Source: an uncultured Caulobacterales bacterium | GTDB lineage: Bacteria; Pseudomonadota; Alphaproteobacteria; Caulobacterales; Maricaulaceae | Reading direction: 5' to 3' | NCBI GenBank assembly: GCA_947503715.1 | Contig: CANNER010000002.1 | Location: 558,001-622,000 of the forward strand | Length of the DNA: 64,000 nt | Shown here: positions 2,059-42,646 of the stretch, piece after piece | Numbering within the stretch: the first letter of the stretch is position 1 | Layout: every line of letters starts with the position of its first letter | Notes under the pieces: generated by a model | Database searches by the model: none | What the model saw: the letters and a program-made list of their open reading frames with translations, nothing else | What the model was told of the DNA's origin: nothing | Program-made: the position numbers and the translations under genes

Positions 2059-2439
2059 CTAGGTGAAAGTCGGGGGTGCGCGTCCGCCCAGTGGCGGGCC
2101 TTGCGCGTCGTAAAACAAAGCGGTGGGGCAGGGTGAATTCGGGTTTTCCGCGTCAGCCCAAGCCAGATTTTGCGGCGCGACTGGCGCAGGCAAAGTCGCA
2201 AGGCCCGGCATAACACAATCCGCGCAATGCTCCGTCGCGTCCACATCCTCCGGCAGAGTTTTCCCCGCCGCCGCGAAGAGATCGCGGATTTGCGCGATGG
2301 TTTCCGCGCTTGGCGGTTGTCCGCCGGGGTTGCAGATATATTCGCCCGCCGCGTTTGTCCGCATTTGACCGGACCAGCCAAACTGCACCGCGATGATAAC
2401 GGCCAGGCAGAGGCGAAGGATATGTGAGCTCGGTTTCAC
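2059..2439 (-). CDS. DUF2946-like small exported protein
   Basis: 126 residues with an N-terminal hydrophobic segment (LRLCLAVIIAVQFGW), then a HCADC motif near residue 72 and a C-terminal GPPLGGRAPP tail. The CxxC centre and the short GPP tail are typical of DUF2946 proteins, which often accompany copper-related genes. The function is unknown. It is the first gene of a two-gene minus-strand unit with the barrel gene downstream, and is divergent from the DsbD-like gene with about 115 bp between the starts. Confidence 0.6.
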   Translation of the reverse strand: MKPSSHILRLCLAVIIAVQFGWSGQMRTNAAGEYICNPGGQPPSAETIAQIRDLFAAAGKTLPEDVDATEHCADCVMPGLATLPAPVAPQNLAWADAENPNSPCPTALFYDAQGPPLGGRAPPTFT

Positions 2440-2504
2440 GCGGGCGCTTTAATCCCGTTGCTGGTCTTTGCCAAGGCAGGACAAATGACTTGCGGGACTT
2501 TAGC

Positions 2505-2518
2505 GCACGAATTCGTGC
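2505..2518. promoter_or_regulatory. 14-bp perfect palindrome in a divergent promoter region
   Basis: GCACGAATTCGTGC is a perfect 14-bp palindrome in the 115-bp gap between the divergent DUF2946 and DsbD genes, 37 bases before the dsbD-like ATG. Its position suits an operator controlling one or both directions. No regulator can be assigned from the window. Confidence 0.4.
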
Positions 2519-2554
2519 ATCGCTTTGTTAAACCTCTGGCATTAGAAGGCGCGC

Positions 2555-4585
2555 ATGTTTCGGTTCCTACTGATAGTTCTTTTCCTTTGGTCCTGCGCGA
2601 TGTCTGTTTTCGCGCGGGAAACGCTGCCGCTGGATACGGGGCGGACGGAAATTTCGCTTATCTCAGATTATGATACGGTGGCCCCGGGGCAGGACTTTAC
2701 GGTTGTCCTGCGTATGCGGTTTGACCCCGACTGGTATACTTATTGGCGTAACCCCGGGGATAGCGGTGAACCCGTGATGATCCGCTGGGACCTGCCCGAA
2801 GGGTTCACAGCAGGCGATATCCAATGGCCCGTCCCGCACATCAAATGGACGGGGCCGATTGCATCCTATGCATTGGATGAAGAAGTTCTGCTGCCCGTCA
2901 CAATCTCGATCGCTGATACTGTCGATCCGAGCGTTCCCGTCACATTGGACGCTCATGCGCTCTTCCTCGTTTGTGCGGATGTCTGCGTGCCGGAAGACGG
3001 AAAACTGTCACTCGTCATGGGGCTGGGCGAGGCGGAGATTGACCCGGAAGGGTCGGACATCATTCAGGTTGCTCAAGCTGCCATCCCTAAGATTGTGTCC
3101 GCTAAAGGCGGCGTCGTCAGCCAAGGCGAAGCGCTTACATTTGACCTGATTGAATTGCCGGCCGGTTTTGAACCCCTCGAGATTTACCCCAATGTCAGAC
3201 CCGTTCTCGCCCATAGCGAAACTGTGACCCGCACCCTCGGCGAGGACGGCTTCCGCTTTTCCGGCACGTCCGGATATGGCTGGGAAGACGGTGCACCGGA
3301 GAGTTTCGCCGCCACATTGGTCGATGCAGACGGCGAGGGCGTTGTCGTCAATTTCGCGGTGGGTGAGAGCTTCAATATCGGGCCCGTCACGCAGCCTTCC
3401 GCGCAAGCCTCAATCGGATTTTTCGCGGCGGTCATTGGCGCTTTTATTGGCGGACTAATCCTCAATCTCATGCCTTGTGTTTTCCCGATTATCTCGCTGA
3501 AAGCCCTCTCTCTTGCGAAGACAGCTCACGGAGAACGGTCTGCGACGCGTCGTGCAGGATGGGCTTACACAACAGGTGTCTTGGTCAGTTTTGCGGTCTT
3601 CGCCTTGGTCTTGATTGGGCTGAAGGCTGCGGGGACTTCCGTGGGATGGGGCTTCCAATTGCAATCCCCATGGCTCGTTGGGTTGCTGGCGCTGCTCCTT
3701 TTTGCGATCGGCCTGAACCTACTCGGCGTCTATGAAATTGGCGGACGTTTGCAAAATATCGGCAATGATACGGTGTCCAAGTCCGGACCGTTCAGTTCTT
3801 TCCTCACGGGTGTCCTTGCGGTCATCGTCGCGACGCCTTGTACCGCGCCGTTCATGGCAGGCGCAGTGGGATATGCGCTCGCGAGTTCAGCCTTTATTAC
3901 GCTCGCCGTCTTCCTCGCATTGGGTCTGGGCTTTGCGCTGCCCTTCCTTCTCGTCGCCTATATGCCGGGCTTGCTCGCGCGTCTGCCAAAGCCGGGCACG
4001 TGGATGGACACATTCAAACAATTCCTCGCCTTTCCAATGTTCGCCGCCGCTATCTGGCTCGTCTGGGTTCTGAGCCTGCAAGCGGGCGCGGGGGGCGTGT
4101 TAAAATTACTATTGGGCGGCTTGGCGCTGACTTTCGGAATCTGGTTGCTGCGTCGCAAGGGCAATGTCGCAAAATTAATTGGCATTCTGGCCTTGGGGCT
4201 ATCTATCTATCTACCAGTCTCCGTTCGGGCCGTAGACGGCGAAGCCGTGTTAAGCTCTCAGGCTTGGTCGGCTGATCGCGTCGCGAACCTGCAAGCAGAA
4301 GGCCGCCCCGTCTTTGTCGATTTCACCGCCGCCTGGTGCGTGACTTGTAAGGTGAATGAAGGGCTCGTTCTGAATACTCGCAAGACGAAAGCGCTGTTAG
4401 AGCGCACGGACACGGCTTTCCTCGTCGCGGATTGGACGAATAAGGATGATGTGATTGCGGCGGAGTTGAAACGGTTCGGACGGGCGGGCGTGCCGCTCTA
4501 TCTGGTCTACACGCCGAACAGTGCGGATCCCGAAATCCTACCGCAAATTCTCACCTATGATATCCTCAAAGAGGCGCTGGAGTAA
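2555..4585 (+). CDS. DsbD/ScsB-type protein-disulfide reductase
   Basis: 676 residues in the standard three-part order. A signal peptide (to about residue 20) is followed by a periplasmic DsbD-alpha/DsbC_N-like domain with LVCADVCVPE near residue 135. The central membrane domain (about 285-555) carries NLMPCVFPI and VIVATPCTAPF, whose cysteines shuttle electrons across the inner membrane. A C-terminal thioredoxin domain has AAWCVTCK near residue 600. Such proteins pass cytoplasmic reducing power to periplasmic thiol partners, for example in metal tolerance, cytochrome maturation or disulfide isomerisation. The gene diverges from the DUF2946/barrel pair. Family firm; physiological partner unknown. 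Confidence 0.92.
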   Translation: MFRFLLIVLFLWSCAMSVFARETLPLDTGRTEISLISDYDTVAPGQDFTVVLRMRFDPDWYTYWRNPGDSGEPVMIRWDLPEGFTAGDIQWPVPHIKWTGPIASYALDEEVLLPVTISIADTVDPSVPVTLDAHALFLVCADVCVPEDGKLSLVMGLGEAEIDPEGSDIIQVAQAAIPKIVSAKGGVVSQGEALTFDLIELPAGFEPLEIYPNVRPVLAHSETVTRTLGEDGFRFSGTSGYGWEDGAPESFAATLVDADGEGVVVNFAVGESFNIGPVTQPSAQASIGFFAAVIGAFIGGLILNLMPCVFPIISLKALSLAKTAHGERSATRRAGWAYTTGVLVSFAVFALVLIGLKAAGTSVGWGFQLQSPWLVGLLALLLFAIGLNLLGVYEIGGRLQNIGNDTVSKSGPFSSFLTGVLAVIVATPCTAPFMAGAVGYALASSAFITLAVFLALGLGFALPFLLVAYMPGLLARLPKPGTWMDTFKQFLAFPMFAAAIWLVWVLSLQAGAGGVLKLLLGGLALTFGIWLLRRKGNVAKLIGILALGLSIYLPVSVRAVDGEAVLSSQAWSADRVANLQAEGRPVFVDFTAAWCVTCKVNEGLVLNTRKTKALLERTDTAFLVADWTNKDDVIAAELKRFGRAGVPLYLVYTPNSADPEILPQILTYDILKEALE

Positions 4586-4816
4586 TTATTCTGCGGCGAG
4601 TTTGACGTCCTCATCCGGCTCATAGACCAGAATATCCGCGGGCTGGCAGTCCAGTTCCCGACAGAGGGCATCGAGCGTCGAAAAACGAACAGCTCGCGCC
4701 TTCCCCGTTTTAAGAATGGACAAGTTCGCCAACGTTATCCCGACCTGTTCGGCCAGTTGCGTCAGCGACATTTTCCGGTCCAACAGGACGCGGTCGAGAT
4801 TGACCTTGATCGCCAT
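4586..4816 (-). CDS. Short XRE/Cro-family (YozG-like) transcriptional regulator
   Basis: 76 residues, almost all helix-turn-helix: MSLTQLAEQVGITLANLSIL is the HTH and RFSTLDALCRELDCQPADIL the following helix pair, typical of YozG-like regulators. The start ATG overlaps the stop of the preceding DUF2975 gene as TGATG, so the two are translationally coupled. DUF2975 + YozG-like HTH pairs are common in bacteria; the role is unknown, and the membrane partner may modulate the regulator. The gene converges on dsbD with no gap. Confidence 0.85.
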   Translation of the reverse strand: MAIKVNLDRVLLDRKMSLTQLAEQVGITLANLSILKTGKARAVRFSTLDALCRELDCQPADILVYEPDEDVKLAAE

Positions 4817-5367
4817 CAGATCGTCAATTCCTGTTCAGCCCGCAGCGCCGCCCCGTGACGGAAAGCCTCGGAAATGGCTGCGATGATAAAGATGAAGAAC
4901 CAGGTCCCGACGCGGATATCAAGGCGCGAGCCGTCCATCTCTCCGTTGGAACCGATGATGTAATATGCAAACATTCGGAAGACTTCCGTCGCCGCGATGA
5001 CGACCCATATATTGCGCAGACGCGCCACATTTTCCGGCAGGAACGGGTCGCCATGGATCACGGCTTTGACAACTTTGCGTAAGAGTTTGAGCACAAAAAA
5101 CCAACCTGCGGCGAGGACAGCCCCCGCCAGACAACGGCCCAATAGAATGGAAGGTTCCGGCGCGGTTTTGGCCTCTGCCAGAAGACTATCGCGAAACTCG
5201 CTCGGCACCGCCATGATGAGTGCCATGAGGAGCATCAGGACAAATCCGACAGCCATAACAATCTGGCCGACAATCAGCAGGATGGACAGCGCCCGCGTCA
5301 TGGGGGCGCTGCCTGCGGAACCGTCCATTGAGGTGGCTTGGTCTAAATCATCAATGATCATTTTCAT
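4816..5367 (-). CDS. DUF2975 membrane protein
   Basis: About 183 residues with four hydrophobic segments (ILLIVGQIVMAVGFVLMLLM, LAGAVLAAGWFFVLKLL, VVIAATEVFRMFAYYI, TWFFIFIIAAISEAF). The motif HGDPFLPENVARLR between the second and third segments is the usual DUF2975 signature (GdPF...n..RLR). The start is taken as the ATG at 5367; a TTG four codons upstream is also open. Coupled by TGATG to the downstream HTH gene, suggesting a membrane sensor/regulator pair. Biochemical role unknown. Confidence 0.8.
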   Translation of the reverse strand: MKMIIDDLDQATSMDGSAGSAPMTRALSILLIVGQIVMAVGFVLMLLMALIMAVPSEFRDSLLAEAKTAPEPSILLGRCLAGAVLAAGWFFVLKLLRKVVKAVIHGDPFLPENVARLRNIWVVIAATEVFRMFAYYIIGSNGEMDGSRLDIRVGTWFFIFIIAAISEAFRHGAALRAEQELTI

Positions 5368-38272: not shown

Positions 38273-39070
38273 ATGCGTGACGCAACCCAACAGATACCGA
38301 CCGATAGAGCTTCCCTCATTGCGGAGGTCAGGCAGCTTTCCCCGAATCTGTCCGCGGACGACACGACAGTCTCCTCCATTAGGGGCGGACGGGCGGCGGC
38401 GAAGGCTCGATTGAAGACATTGGACCCCGCGGAATATGGAAAGACCCGCAATCATCTGGACGGGGCGGTGACGCAGCTCTCCCCCTATATCCGTCACGGC
38501 GTGATGGGCGCGGATGAAGTCCGCGATCAAGCGCTGGAACTGGCTTCCTGCAAGACGGCGGAAAAATTTGTCCAGCAATTGACGTGGCGGGACTATTGGC
38601 AGCGTCTTTACCGGGAATATCCGGACCATATCTGGAATGATGTCGAGGATTATAAGACAGGGTTCGGGCCGGAGGATTATGCCGATGACTTGCCCGAGGA
38701 TATAGCAGCGGGCGAAACGGGCGTTGCCTGTATCGACCAATTTATCGATCAGCTCCTCACGACGGGCTATCTGCACAACCATGCGCGGCTCTATCTGGCA
38801 GGATATATCTGTCACTGGCGACGCGTGAAGTGGCAGGCAGGCGCGGCGTGGTTCCTCTCGCACCTACTTGACGGAGACCCCGCCTCGAATAATCTGTCAT
38901 GGCAATGGGTCGCCAGCACATTCTCGCACAAGCCTTATTACTACAATCTCGACAATGTCGAAAAATTCAGCGGTCCGGATATTGATACGGCCTTCAAGCG
39001 CAATAAACCGTTGGCCGGCACATATGAAGATTTGCGCAAGCGGCTTTTCCCGAATGGAGATTTCCAATGA
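38273..39070 (+). CDS. Photolyase/cryptochrome FAD-binding domain as a stand-alone protein
   Basis: About 265 residues from MRDATQQIPTDRASLIAEVR. It holds only the helical FAD domain of the photolyase family: GGRAAAKARLKTLDPAEYGK, TQLSPYIRHGVMGADEVRDQ, QLTWRDYWQRLYREYP, HNHARLYLAGYICHWRRVKW and HLLDGDPASNNLSWQWVAST. The N-terminal alpha/beta antenna domain is missing and instead appears to be encoded by the next gene. Overlaps that gene by 4 bp. DNA repair or light sensing are both possible; part of a likely ECF/ChrR-type photo-oxidative set. Confidence 0.85.
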   Translation: MRDATQQIPTDRASLIAEVRQLSPNLSADDTTVSSIRGGRAAAKARLKTLDPAEYGKTRNHLDGAVTQLSPYIRHGVMGADEVRDQALELASCKTAEKFVQQLTWRDYWQRLYREYPDHIWNDVEDYKTGFGPEDYADDLPEDIAAGETGVACIDQFIDQLLTTGYLHNHARLYLAGYICHWRRVKWQAGAAWFLSHLLDGDPASNNLSWQWVASTFSHKPYYYNLDNVEKFSGPDIDTAFKRNKPLAGTYEDLRKRLFPNGDFQ

Positions 39071-39504
39071 GCGTCATTTGGATACATGAGGACGCGATAA
39101 CGCTGGACCATCCGGCTGTGACGATGGCGGGCGAGGGAGCGGAGATCATATTCATCTGGGATACGGAAAGACATGATGAAAAAGCCTATTCTCTGAAGCG
39201 GCGCGTCTTTATTTATGAATGCGCATTGGACCTCGGCGTGAAAATCATGGCGGGTCATCCTTATAATGTCTTGCGCGAATTGGTTGGCGAACAGACTATT
39301 TATACCGCGTGGTCACCTGACCCTGATTACCGCGAGATTATTGCCGATCTCCGCGATACGCATGAGGTCAAGGTCATCGAAGCCCCAGGCCTCGTGAGTG
39401 TACCGGATGATGTCGATACAAAACGGTTCTTCCGCTTCTGGAACCGCGCCAAGAAATCCGCCATGACGCCGTCCCATCAGGTTCTGGAGTCGGAAACAGC
39501 ATGA
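39067..39504 (+). CDS. Photolyase N-terminal-domain-like protein (split partner)
   Basis: 145 residues. MSVIWIHEDAITLDHPAVTM resembles the start of photolyases (xxxWFRxDLRLxDNPAL), and EIIFIWDTERHDEKAYSLKR, LGVKIMAGHPYNVLRELVG and TIYTAWSPDPDYREI follow the Rossmann-like antenna domain in shortened form. With the upstream FAD-domain gene it would rebuild a whole photolyase/cryptochrome in reversed order. Overlaps both neighbours by 4 bp, consistent with stoichiometric expression. Assignment rests on motif reading. Confidence 0.65.
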   Translation: MSVIWIHEDAITLDHPAVTMAGEGAEIIFIWDTERHDEKAYSLKRRVFIYECALDLGVKIMAGHPYNVLRELVGEQTIYTAWSPDPDYREIIADLRDTHEVKVIEAPGLVSVPDDVDTKRFFRFWNRAKKSAMTPSHQVLESETA

Positions 39505-40457
39505 CAATTGCGATTATCGGCGCTGGCGTGGCGGGACTCTCGGCGGCACGTGAACTCCGCGCGAACGGTATTGATGTCCGCCTCTTCGATAAATCACGCG
39601 GGGTCAGCGGGCGCATGTCCACGCGCTATGCTGGCGCGTGGGAGTTTGATCACGGCGCGCAATATTTAACCGTGCAGGACGAAGATTTCCGCGCCGAAAT
39701 TGACCGCACGATAGAGGCGGGATCGTGCGCCCCTTGGGCTGCCCGTGCGCTCTATCTGAAAACGGGAGAATTAAGTTCTGACACGGGTCGCGACCGCTAT
39801 GTCGGAACACCGCGCATGAACAGCCTGCCGAAATTCTGGGCAGAGGGTCTCAATATAGAGCTCAGCCGTCGCGTTAGTAAAGTCACACGGGGTGAAACTT
39901 GGACATTAGAATTTGAAGACGGGTCGGTCGAAACGGGTTTTGATGGCGTTATCTCGACATTGCCGCCTGCGCAGGCTCAACTGGTTTTACCTGATGACTT
40001 CAAACAAATGGAGACCGTGAAATCCGCAGAGATGAATGTCTGTTTCACCCTGATGATCGGGTTAAATGCGCCCGTTGATCCGGGTTGGGACACACTTCGC
40101 GTGAAAGACCTGCCGATTGACTGGATTAGTATGAACCATGCCAAGCCCGGACGATCACAGGATGTCGGCACAGTTGTTGTGACGAGCGAGCCGGACTGGT
40201 CCAACACGCATCAGGATGCGGACCGCGAATGGGTGCAGGACGTGATGTTGAAATCCGCGTCGGCCCTGATCGGGATGCCGTTACAGGACTCGCCTCATCT
40301 CGCGCTCCATCGCTGGCTCTATGCCTCGAATAAAACCTCACCCGACGTGGACTGTCTCATCGGGGACGGGATTGTGGCTTGCGGCGATTGGTGCCTTGGC
40401 GGTCGCGTGCAGGGTGCATGGTTATCAGGTCGGGCGGCTGCGCGCGTTTTTGTGTAA
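39501..40457 (+). CDS. Renalase-like FAD/NAD(P)-dependent oxidoreductase
   Basis: 318 residues. IAIIGAGVAGLSAARELRAN is the dinucleotide fold; VRLFDKSRGVSGRMSTRYAG and FDHGAQYLTVQDEDF are typical of renalase/small amine-oxidase-like flavoproteins. IVACGDWCLGGRVQGAWLSG is the C-terminal FAD motif. Similar genes are in the singlet-oxygen regulon of Rhodobacter. Overlaps the photolyase-domain gene by 4 bp. Confidence 0.85.
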   Translation: MTIAIIGAGVAGLSAARELRANGIDVRLFDKSRGVSGRMSTRYAGAWEFDHGAQYLTVQDEDFRAEIDRTIEAGSCAPWAARALYLKTGELSSDTGRDRYVGTPRMNSLPKFWAEGLNIELSRRVSKVTRGETWTLEFEDGSVETGFDGVISTLPPAQAQLVLPDDFKQMETVKSAEMNVCFTLMIGLNAPVDPGWDTLRVKDLPIDWISMNHAKPGRSQDVGTVVVTSEPDWSNTHQDADREWVQDVMLKSASALIGMPLQDSPHLALHRWLYASNKTSPDVDCLIGDGIVACGDWCLGGRVQGAWLSGRAAARVFV

Positions 40458-40501: not shown

Positions 40502-40963
40502 ATGACTAAGACCGAAATATATGCCCAAACTGCCCGCGAGATTGAGGCGGTATTAGAGGGTGAAACGAATGTCGTCGCGCGTATGGCGACCGTCTCCTGT
40601 CTCCTCCATCAGGCTTTTGATGATTATTTCTGGACGGGATTTTATGTCGTTGATCCGGAAAAATCCGAAGAACTCGTAGTCGGTCCCTATCAGGGCACGC
40701 TAGGCTGTCTGCGCATTCCCTTCAGCCGCGGAGTCTGCGGTGCGGCGGCGCGGACGGGCGAGGTCCAGATTGTCCAAGACGTCCACGCCTTCCCCGGTCA
40801 TATCGCCTGTGACGCCCGCAGCCAGAGCGAGATCGTCGTGCCGGTCTACGCGCCGGACGGAAAGCTCTTCGCCGTTTTTGACGTGGACTCGACGGAGGTC
40901 GGCAGCTTTGACGCGGCGGACGCGGAAGGTTTGAAGACGATTTTAGATAAGGTGATTATTTAA
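40502..40963 (+). CDS. msrC: Free methionine-(R)-sulfoxide reductase (GAF domain)
   Basis: About 153 residues from MTKTEIYAQTAREIEAVLE; the longer frame overlaps the upstream gene and is not used. LGCLRIPFSRGVCGAAARTG and HIACDARSQSEIVVPVY hold the three conserved cysteines of fRMsr enzymes. It repairs free Met-R-SO using thioredoxin. Its place after photolyase-like and FAD genes fits an oxidative-damage unit. Confidence 0.93.
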   Translation: MTKTEIYAQTAREIEAVLEGETNVVARMATVSCLLHQAFDDYFWTGFYVVDPEKSEELVVGPYQGTLGCLRIPFSRGVCGAAARTGEVQIVQDVHAFPGHIACDARSQSEIVVPVYAPDGKLFAVFDVDSTEVGSFDAADAEGLKTILDKVII

Positions 40964-40989: not shown

Positions 40990-41604
40990 TCAGACCAAAT
41001 CCGCGATCTTATCCAGTTTCCCGCCGAGGGGCTGGGACTTGCGGCCTTCTTTCAGGCGGCGCGAAATCGTCTCAAATACTGCGTCGATACTGGAGTCGGA
41101 CTCAATATCATCATGCAGTGTTTCCGGTGCGAATCCGGCCTTGATCATGTCGTCCAAAACCTCGACCAGTTTGTCCCAGAACCCTGTATCACTCAGGAAA
41201 ACAATGGGTTTGTCGTGTAGGTTCAGCCGTTGCCAACTCATGACCTCAATGACTTCTTCCAATGTGCCGACGCCACCCGGTAGGACGACAAACGCATCGG
41301 CCAGATCAAACATACGGATTTTACGCGCATGCATATCATCGACAAATTCATGCTCAATATCCGGAATCGTCCGCTCAATCGCATTGAGAAAATGCGGGAT
41401 GACGCCAATGACGTTCGCGCCACCATCCCGCGCTGCGCGGGCCGTCGCCCCCATCAGGCCCAGTCCGCCGCCGCCATAAACGAGCTTGTGCCCGCGTGCG
41501 GCTATGGCTGTGCCCAGCTCAGTCGCGAGCGCCAAATGCGCGGGATCTTCGCCCGGTGAGGAGCCACAAAAAACACAAATCGTCAGGGAAGCTGTTTCAG
41601 TCAT
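40990..41604 (-). CDS. LOG family protein (nucleoside 5'-monophosphate phosphoribohydrolase-like)
   Basis: 204 residues. CVFCGSSPGEDPAHLALA, LVYGGGGLGLMGATARAA and VVLPGGVGTLEEVIEVMSWQ (PGGxGTxxE) are the LOG signatures; the Arg and Glu of the active site are present. LOG enzymes release bases from nucleotide monophosphates. The bacterial role is often purine turnover. Convergent with msrC. Confidence 0.9.
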   Translation of the reverse strand: MTETASLTICVFCGSSPGEDPAHLALATELGTAIAARGHKLVYGGGGLGLMGATARAARDGGANVIGVIPHFLNAIERTIPDIEHEFVDDMHARKIRMFDLADAFVVLPGGVGTLEEVIEVMSWQRLNLHDKPIVFLSDTGFWDKLVEVLDDMIKAGFAPETLHDDIESDSSIDAVFETISRRLKEGRKSQPLGGKLDKIADLV

Positions 41605-41671: not shown

Positions 41672-42646
41672 GTGCAAATACCCGCAAAAGAAAGATTAAA
41701 ACGTCGTCAGCGTAAACGGCTGATTTGGATCGCGATTGCGGGGATTGCGCTGGCGGCTATTCTCCTCCTCGCTATACAGATTAGCGGGGCGCTGGGCCCA
41801 GATTCTGGTGAAATCGTGGATAATCCTGTGACGTCGCAGACTGAACGCATTGGCGTCCGCCCCGCCAGTTTTCGCCAGATCAGTGAGTTCCGTGAAAATG
41901 GTGTCGCGCGACTGCGCGTCGCCGGTGAAGCGGAACCCGGTTCAGTCGTTGTCATAACAAATAGAGGCGAACGCCTACGGCAGGTCCGCACGAATGAACT
42001 GGGCCAGTGGGGTCTAACCGTGAATGTCGGGGCCGAGCCCGTTGTCTTGGAAGCTCAACTTTATACAACAGAAGACGCCCCCGGTATCCGGTCAGAGGAA
42101 GCCGTATTCCGTCTGCCCGTCCCGACCGGCGATGATGTGGCAACTGCGAATTTTATCACACCCGCCCTCATCATGGTAACGGCCCCCGGCAGTCCGACAC
42201 GGATTATTCAATCCCCTTTTGGCGGCGCGCCGACCTCCGGCCCGCTCTCGCTTTCTGTGATTGATTATGATGATGCGGGCGGCGTTATTATTACGGGGAC
42301 GAGTTCTGTGCCGGGACGTGTCCGGTTTTACGCGCAAAATAATGTGATTGGGGAAACGGGCATCGGTGTGGGCGGCCGTTGGAATTATATTGCCGGACGG
42401 ATGCTGCCGCGCGGACAATGGGAAATCCGGGCCGAGCTCATCCCCGCGGTCGGAGCTCCGGATGCACCTTTGGAAACCGCGAGTGTGTCCGTGCCCTTCG
42501 CGCTGTTGCCACCTCTGCGTAATGCGGATGATGAGAGCGGAGCGCTGTCTGTAAATTTTCAGCCGCTTTACTGGCAGGTCCGCCGGACACTGATTGGCGG
42601 CGGCGGGCAATCCACTGTCGTCTTTTCGCCGGACGCGACGGAGTAG
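41672..42646 (+). CDS. Membrane-anchored protein with Ig-like domains
   Basis: 324 residues; GTG start with AGGAGA upstream. A basic N-terminus (KERLKRRQRKR) and one membrane helix (LIWIAIAGIALAAILLLAIQ) are followed by two predicted Ig-like beta-sandwich repeats (VARLRVAGEAEPGSVVVITN; GVIITGTSSVPGRVRFYAQN). The closing LYWQVRRTLIGGGGQSTVVF segment resembles the end of envelope proteins that carry LysM elsewhere. No catalytic motif. Possibly a cell-wall or secretion accessory. Confidence 0.65.
   Translation: MQIPAKERLKRRQRKRLIWIAIAGIALAAILLLAIQISGALGPDSGEIVDNPVTSQTERIGVRPASFRQISEFRENGVARLRVAGEAEPGSVVVITNRGERLRQVRTNELGQWGLTVNVGAEPVVLEAQLYTTEDAPGIRSEEAVFRLPVPTGDDVATANFITPALIMVTAPGSPTRIIQSPFGGAPTSGPLSLSVIDYDDAGGVIITGTSSVPGRVRFYAQNNVIGETGIGVGGRWNYIAGRMLPRGQWEIRAELIPAVGAPDAPLETASVSVPFALLPPLRNADDESGALSVNFQPLYWQVRRTLIGGGGQSTVVFSPDATE

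Follow-up and report, generated by a model that had tools for sequence, protein, structure and literature searches.

Normal photolyases are one chain with the antenna domain in front of the FAD domain. Then what is encoded by two adjacent genes that hold these domains separately and in the opposite order? The question arises from a stretch of 64,000 nucleotides from an uncultured Caulobacterales bacterium (contig CANNER010000002.1), which is called the window below. An original prediction, made from the letters of the window, described a photolyase or cryptochrome split into two genes, followed by a renalase-like enzyme and MsrC, the four of which might form a light- or oxidation-responsive complex. 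Our analysis makes it probable that the two genes encode a two-subunit photolyase of the Fe-S-less Phr4/Phr5 (SPL) type, and its job is most likely the light-driven repair of cyclobutane pyrimidine dimers (CPD).

Two genes for the two domains of a photolyase

Both genes lie on the forward strand. P0001 (38273-39070, 265 aa) encodes a stand-alone photolyase FAD-binding, or catalytic, domain of the Fe-S-less Phr4/SPL type, and P0002 (39067-39504, 145 aa) a stand-alone alpha/beta domain of the antenna type (PF00875-like, Phr5-type). The order is as claimed, the gene of the FAD domain preceding that of the antenna-domain protein, and the claimed 4-bp overlap is found in the sequence as an ATGA stop/start at 39067-39070. 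A simple scan for a LexA-type box (GTTC/GAAC half-sites 7 bases apart) upstream of the pair gave none, and a promoter and terminator scan gave nothing above shuffles.

The sole Pfam domain of P0001 is PF03441 (FAD_binding_7), at residues 99-231 with E 9.1e-25, and among solved structures it is closest to class I photolyases (1tez and 1owl, E ~1e-17). Both results bear out the view that the first gene carries the catalytic part of a split photolyase. P0001 stays under every cut-off of NCBIfam, and among PHROGs it falls in a family of unknown function, where P0002 has no match. The AF2 model of P0001, built on 8 alignment rows, is poor (pLDDT 53).

For P0002, the Pfam score is sub-threshold (PF00875, E 0.013, 15.9 bits against a gathering cut-off of 26.6), and NCBIfam has no fitting name. 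The profile of its family aligns with the N-terminal domain of full-length photolyases at an hhalign value of 98.1% (E 9.7e-14, 164 columns); this was never equalled in 100 column shuffles, and the reversed alignment gave 0.4%. The same profile matches the start of photolyase frames of 465-487 aa in 5 genomes (E 8e-8 to 5e-7). An AF2 model was obtained with pLDDT 76.4 and pTM 0.69; the zone below pLDDT 50 (residues 108-113 and 127-145) takes up much of the C-terminal third and includes part of the conserved RFFRFW region. When the model was searched with Foldseek, photolyases and cryptochromes were the top solved matches (best E 4.2e-4), and VIA-align superposed its residues 1-116 on 1iqr with Z 12.6 and rmsd 2.5 over 112 residues. 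The original prediction would have failed on a second protein folded unlike the photolyase N-domain. The modelled P0002 clearly has the alpha/beta Rossmann-like fold of these N-domains, photolyases being its best matches.

Occurrence of the pair in other genomes

Is the arrangement a chance event in one genome? Genome contigs of 84,980 species were scanned with peptide patterns of P0001 only, and 7 relatives were found, six in alphaproteobacterial records and one in Botrimarina (Planctomycetota). In all 7 a P0002 relative comes right after the P0001 relative. In a set of 385 genomes of Alphaproteobacteria, the P0002 profile has matches in 11, and the identical 11 match the P0001 profile at E 3.5e-104 or better, the next-best FAD match being at E 9e-48; each of these carriers has the two genes side by side on the same strand. 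Of the 99 genomes in the window's own family, 13 have a match to P0002; 11 of these matches adjoin P0001, one (L021) is cut by the contig end and one (L022) is the N-domain of an ordinary photolyase. A phylum sample of 398 genomes gave 7 matches at E 1e-6, which are the window, one true relative and five N-domains of ordinary photolyases. The planctomycete sample, 246 genomes centred on Botrimarina, gave no match besides Botrimarina itself. A search with A2 gave no viral copies, and phage records gave only matches of at most 30% identity.

In total, 27 distinct pairs with adjacent genes come from genomes, that of the window included, and one from a Deinococcus plasmid, which gives 28 split pairs at 22-69% identity to the window proteins. 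The FAD gene is followed by the adjacent antenna gene in all of them, so the survey of gene order in relatives agrees with the original prediction, and the recurrence in 28 loci excludes chance. With start codons as picked in this analysis, the overlap is -4 in 18 of the 28. Three loci of a small-genome alphaproteobacterial genus (L046, L048 and L050) were flagged as having one TGA inside. A recoded TGA was considered for them and rejected: the sequence of L046 has an ATGA stop/start overlap, and in L048 and L050 the overlap is likewise -4.

Relation to Phr4/Phr5 and loss of the Fe-S cysteines

The layout is not without precedent. Haney et al. 2022 (PMC9426592) describe phr4/phr5 (split) and phr6 (fused), both in reverse order, in marine Synechococcus/Cyanobium, and an inverted topology is described for NewPHL/SPL (PMC13274461). 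Besides Haney et al. 2022, our literature search on split or reversed photolyases gave no report of such a pair. According to the sections of PMC9426592 used here, all Phr4/Phr6 have four Fe-S cysteines, which in Phr4 of Synechococcus RS9916 are C169, C254, C257 and C263 (spacing 85, 3, 6), and phr4/phr5 improved the light-dependent survival of E. coli after UV-C.

Four cysteines of this type are present in 6 of the relatives, three from Alphaproteobacteria (L028, L029, L045) and three from Deinococcus (L034, L035, L036). Their spacing is 85 and then 3 in all six with a last gap of 4 to 8, and in L029 and L045 it is 85, 3, 6, identical to the published Phr4. This identity makes it very probable that the pair family is Phr4/Phr5 and that the window, judged by layout and cysteine spacing, is an Fe-S-less branch of it. 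The window protein and its clade have lost cysteines two to four (C-x2-C...C); the first, in TGVACID, is present in the window and often kept across the clade. Because the defining Fe-S feature is lacking and the kinship is one of layout and cysteine spacing, we rank the window as a variant of Phr4/Phr5 and not as a member. The layout is thus already known, and what is new here is the loss of the Fe-S site together with two changed lesion-contact residues. The two-subunit reverse-order photolyase is no cyanobacterial oddity, as it spans Alphaproteobacteria, a planctomycete and Deinococcus, and it occurs with and without the Fe-S cysteines, split and fused.

Natural fusions and the integrity of the split genes

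Do the two proteins act together? Four Deinococcus plasmids carry a relative, and in three of them (AJ005, wulumuqiensis and psychrotolerans) the FAD and antenna domains are in a single ORF; these fusion ORFs lie at 2866-4236 of L034, 2378-3796 of L035 and 501-1874 of L100. The AJ005 fusion shows PF03441 and then a weak PF00875. The fourth plasmid (QL22) has the split form with a 4-bp ATGA overlap. The P0002 family also aligns with the C-terminal part of an ORF on a Persicobacter plasmid (Bacteroidota; hhalign 81.8%, E 1.1e-5), and this ORF too looks like a FAD-antenna fusion. On that plasmid (L037) the reverse-order photolyase-like ORF stands beside a second photolyase-like ORF, the stop-to-stop frames being 2348-3559 and 3441-5015. 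In the FAD tree, whose support is moderate (91/86 for the pair clade, with a long-branch warning), the split form surrounds the Deinococcus fusions on all sides, so the Deinococcus fusion looks derived from the split form. The fusions are good indirect evidence that P0001 and P0002 act as one unit.

Could the two frames of the window nevertheless be the remains of one gene, or the source of one protein? An ordinary photolyase broken by a frameshift or an assembly error would leave two short frames where most genomes have one, as is seen here, but no frameshift of a normal gene could reverse the domain order, and 28 split pairs with varied overlaps and with the range of identities given above have this layout. 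Reversed order and recurrence rule this reading out, and we give it practically no credence. Ribosomal frameshifting across the overlap, raised for phr4/phr5 by Haney et al. (PMC9426592), would yield a single fused protein, for which the natural fusions could be cited as a parallel. The spacing varies among the relatives, however (-8, -4, -1, +14, +64), so that different shifts would be needed; the ATGA of the window would require a shift of -1 or +2, and in every case a start codon for P0002 is present close to the stop of the FAD gene. A programmed frameshift is therefore very unlikely.

Active-site residues and likely function

Is the pair still a repair enzyme? To this end, residue positions were mapped onto the A. 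nidulans photolyase by profile alignment and counted in 24 rows without and 6 rows with the Fe-S cysteines; the count excludes the Persicobacter rows as well as the photolyases on the minus strand of L005-L007. R232, W286, R287, N349, R352, W367, D380, D382, N386 and W392 (A. nidulans numbering) are identical in all 30 pair rows and W390 is kept in 27 of them, while the outer tryptophan W314 is mostly replaced by F or Y. We take the mapped positions to be the known sites of FAD binding, the Trp-chain and lesion contact. Asparagine at 349 with M or L at 353 is presumably the CPD-type pattern; (6-4) enzymes have His-His at the N349/M353 site. From the Fe-S site, Haney et al. predict (6-4) activity and not CPD activity for Phr4/5 (PMC9426592, in the part drawn on here), and the CPD-type pattern of the pair rows counts against this prediction.

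Two positions set the window's subclade apart. E283 is changed to Q and M353 to L in all 12 of its rows, and the subclade is supported at 98/96 in the FAD tree. In P0001 the two residues are Q102 and L173. Elsewhere in the pair clade E283 is kept except in L036, and M353 is present in every row; Q at the E283 position is also seen in 2 of 7 ordinary photolyases sampled. Read from the alignment, Q and L together are one coordinated change at what is predicted to be the lesion-facing surface, and they may weaken CPD repair or shift the substrate. The conserved pattern points to CPD repair as the likeliest job of the pair, with an altered efficiency or substrate possible.

We picture the two proteins working as a likely P0001-P0002 heterodimer. 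P0001 would bind FAD and hold both the tryptophans for electron transfer and the cleft for the lesion. P0002 would be supplied in trans, its level matched to that of P0001 through the ATGA overlap, and would dock on P0001, where it would cap the FAD domain or make it complete; it may or may not carry an antenna pigment. The complex would then repair cyclobutane pyrimidine dimers in the light, beside the one full-length photolyase of the source genome (G000), which is encoded on a different contig. We infer the heterodimer, the FAD occupancy, the CPD repair and the task of P0002, be it cap or antenna; what the analysis itself shows is the domain identities, the consistent adjacency, the natural fusions, the loss of Fe-S cysteines and the conserved catalytic residues. 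As the antenna-type domain is here a separate protein, its effect on FAD binding and repair can be tested by adding or omitting P0002.

Would a sensor fit as well? A cryptochrome-like light or redox sensor in place of a repair enzyme might explain the Q and L in every row of a subclade so well supported, the missing Fe-S site of that subclade and the renalase-like oxidoreductase gene directly downstream in all of its members, and the full-length photolyase of G000 could take care of repair. Yet the other FAD and lesion residues are invariant, W286, W392, N349 and R232 among them, ordinary photolyases can also have the Q, and Pfam finds no signalling domain or effector in P0001 or P0002. We regard a sensor as unlikely. 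A different question is whether P0002 only closes the FAD site as a structural lid, a sealing role that Emmerich in 2020 reportedly found for the C-terminal domain of NewPHL. This does not exclude two-subunit CPD repair, and we put it a little short of an even chance. The P0002 family does align, over nearly the full length of P0002, with the C-terminal domain of 21 proteins (hhalign 49%, E 1.7e-4, 0 of 100 shuffles as good) that we term NewPHL-type by their layout alone, a FAD domain and then about 150-200 aa, and not by comparison with a named NewPHL. Moreover, CofG for the synthesis of 8-HDF has no match in the genome, which makes 8-HDF unlikely as an antenna pigment here. On the other side, folate, FMN and DMRL are further candidate antennae, and canonical antenna domains resemble P0002 much more closely than they do the NewPHL-type domain, for which the comparison with canonical N-domains gives only 0.1%.

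Renalase and MsrC neighbours

The unit does continue as predicted. A second ATGA overlap, at 39501-39504, leads from P0002 into P0003 (39501-40457, forward strand, 318 aa), a bacterial renalase-like FAD/NAD(P) oxidoreductase that matches the solved renalase 4zcc over nearly its whole length (E 4e-52). About 45 bp past P0003 starts the gene of MsrC/YebR, a free methionine-R-sulfoxide reductase of the GAF fold (40502-40963, forward strand; 1vhm YebR E 2e-39, 3mmh MsrC E 3e-36, GAF_2 E 6.7e-12). Farther on, an ordinary LOG-type (TIGR00730) Rossmann protein is encoded directly downstream on the opposite strand (40990-41604), and the forward strand at 41672-42646 encodes a predicted 324-aa protein with a hydrophobic stretch at its N-terminus and no curated NCBIfam family above cut-off.

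How firmly do these neighbours belong to the pair? Renalase lies downstream of the pair at the window, L003, L011-L020 and the cut L021, and it is absent behind the pair in all of L004-L009. In the window's family each of the 12 pair loci has it next (one is cut at the contig end), and so does every member of the subclade; it is a conserved neighbour in this family only. There, 52 of 99 genomes have renalase. Among the 30 of these 52 renalase loci that were inspected, 12 are beside the pair, 2 have an ordinary photolyase in the flank and 16 have neither. In a class sample of 142 genomes, 18 have renalase, at 19 places in all; 3 of the 19 have a photolyase-type gene within the flanks covered (the window; G194, a pair member; G210, an ordinary photolyase). 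The link of renalase to the pair within one family is thus supported, and since 16 of the 30 inspected family loci lack a photolyase in the flank, renalase is a neighbour and not an obligate subunit. MsrC comes after renalase at 5 of 13 renalase loci, most of the loci searched ending about 0.5 kb past renalase, and it is no conserved part of the unit. The proposed light- or oxidation-responsive complex of four gene products is therefore not conserved, and we do not retain it. Renalase-like genes recur near three kinds of photolyase, the reverse-order pair, the ordinary and the NewPHL-type (39501-40457 of the window; L022, L038, L084, L091, L127, L128). No paper that treats renalase together with a photolyase was found in our literature search.

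Comparison with known systems

The free antenna subunit is linked in sequence both to canonical antenna domains and to the C-terminal domain of NewPHL, and this link is relevant to the origin of two-domain photolyases. In the C-terminal 150-200 aa of L051-L069, the NewPHL-type end GFF-x-F resembles the RFFRFW end of P0002, which suggests descent from an antenna domain. If the alignment of the NewPHL-type domain with P0002 holds, a single comparison with a modest score, the Z-domain of NewPHL would descend from the antenna domain. One may go further and suppose that in the window's family the pair shed the Fe-S cluster, altered its lesion contacts and became coupled to renalase, turning to another substrate or to light or redox sensing, with P0002 as a sequence intermediate and the NewPHL Z-domain as a worn-down antenna domain. 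Such a scenario seems to us rather unlikely as a whole.

Among known systems, Phr4/Phr5 has the same adjacent genes with the FAD-domain gene first and the antenna-domain gene second, and a fused form exists in both. The window differs in three of the four Fe-S cysteines, which are missing, in its renalase neighbour, in Q and L at two lesion-contact positions, and in a 4-bp overlap of the genes as against a gap of 7 bp. NewPHL and Phr7, single-strand DNA photolyases with a C-terminal Z-domain in the accounts of PMC9426592 and PMC13274461 consulted here, share the inverted topology, but they have the catalytic domain and a far more divergent C-terminal domain on one chain, whereas here there are two genes. 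In the FAD tree the NewPHL-type proteins form a separate sister clade (99/99), with P0001 outside it. P0001 fits the SPL class as a FAD_binding_7 protein without an N-terminal alpha/beta domain. The pertinent parts of PMC9649867, PMC9178010 and PMC9498864 describe SPL as a FAD domain similar to class I photolyases that lacks the alpha/beta domain, while here this domain is present as a separate adjoining gene. Class I CPD photolyases (1owl, 1tez) have the same catalytic residues in the FAD domain and the fold of P0002, but they are one chain with the antenna first, which the pair is not. P0003, finally, is alike in sequence to the bacterial renalase 4zcc, with a predicted activity, and differs in being encoded beside a photolyase pair.
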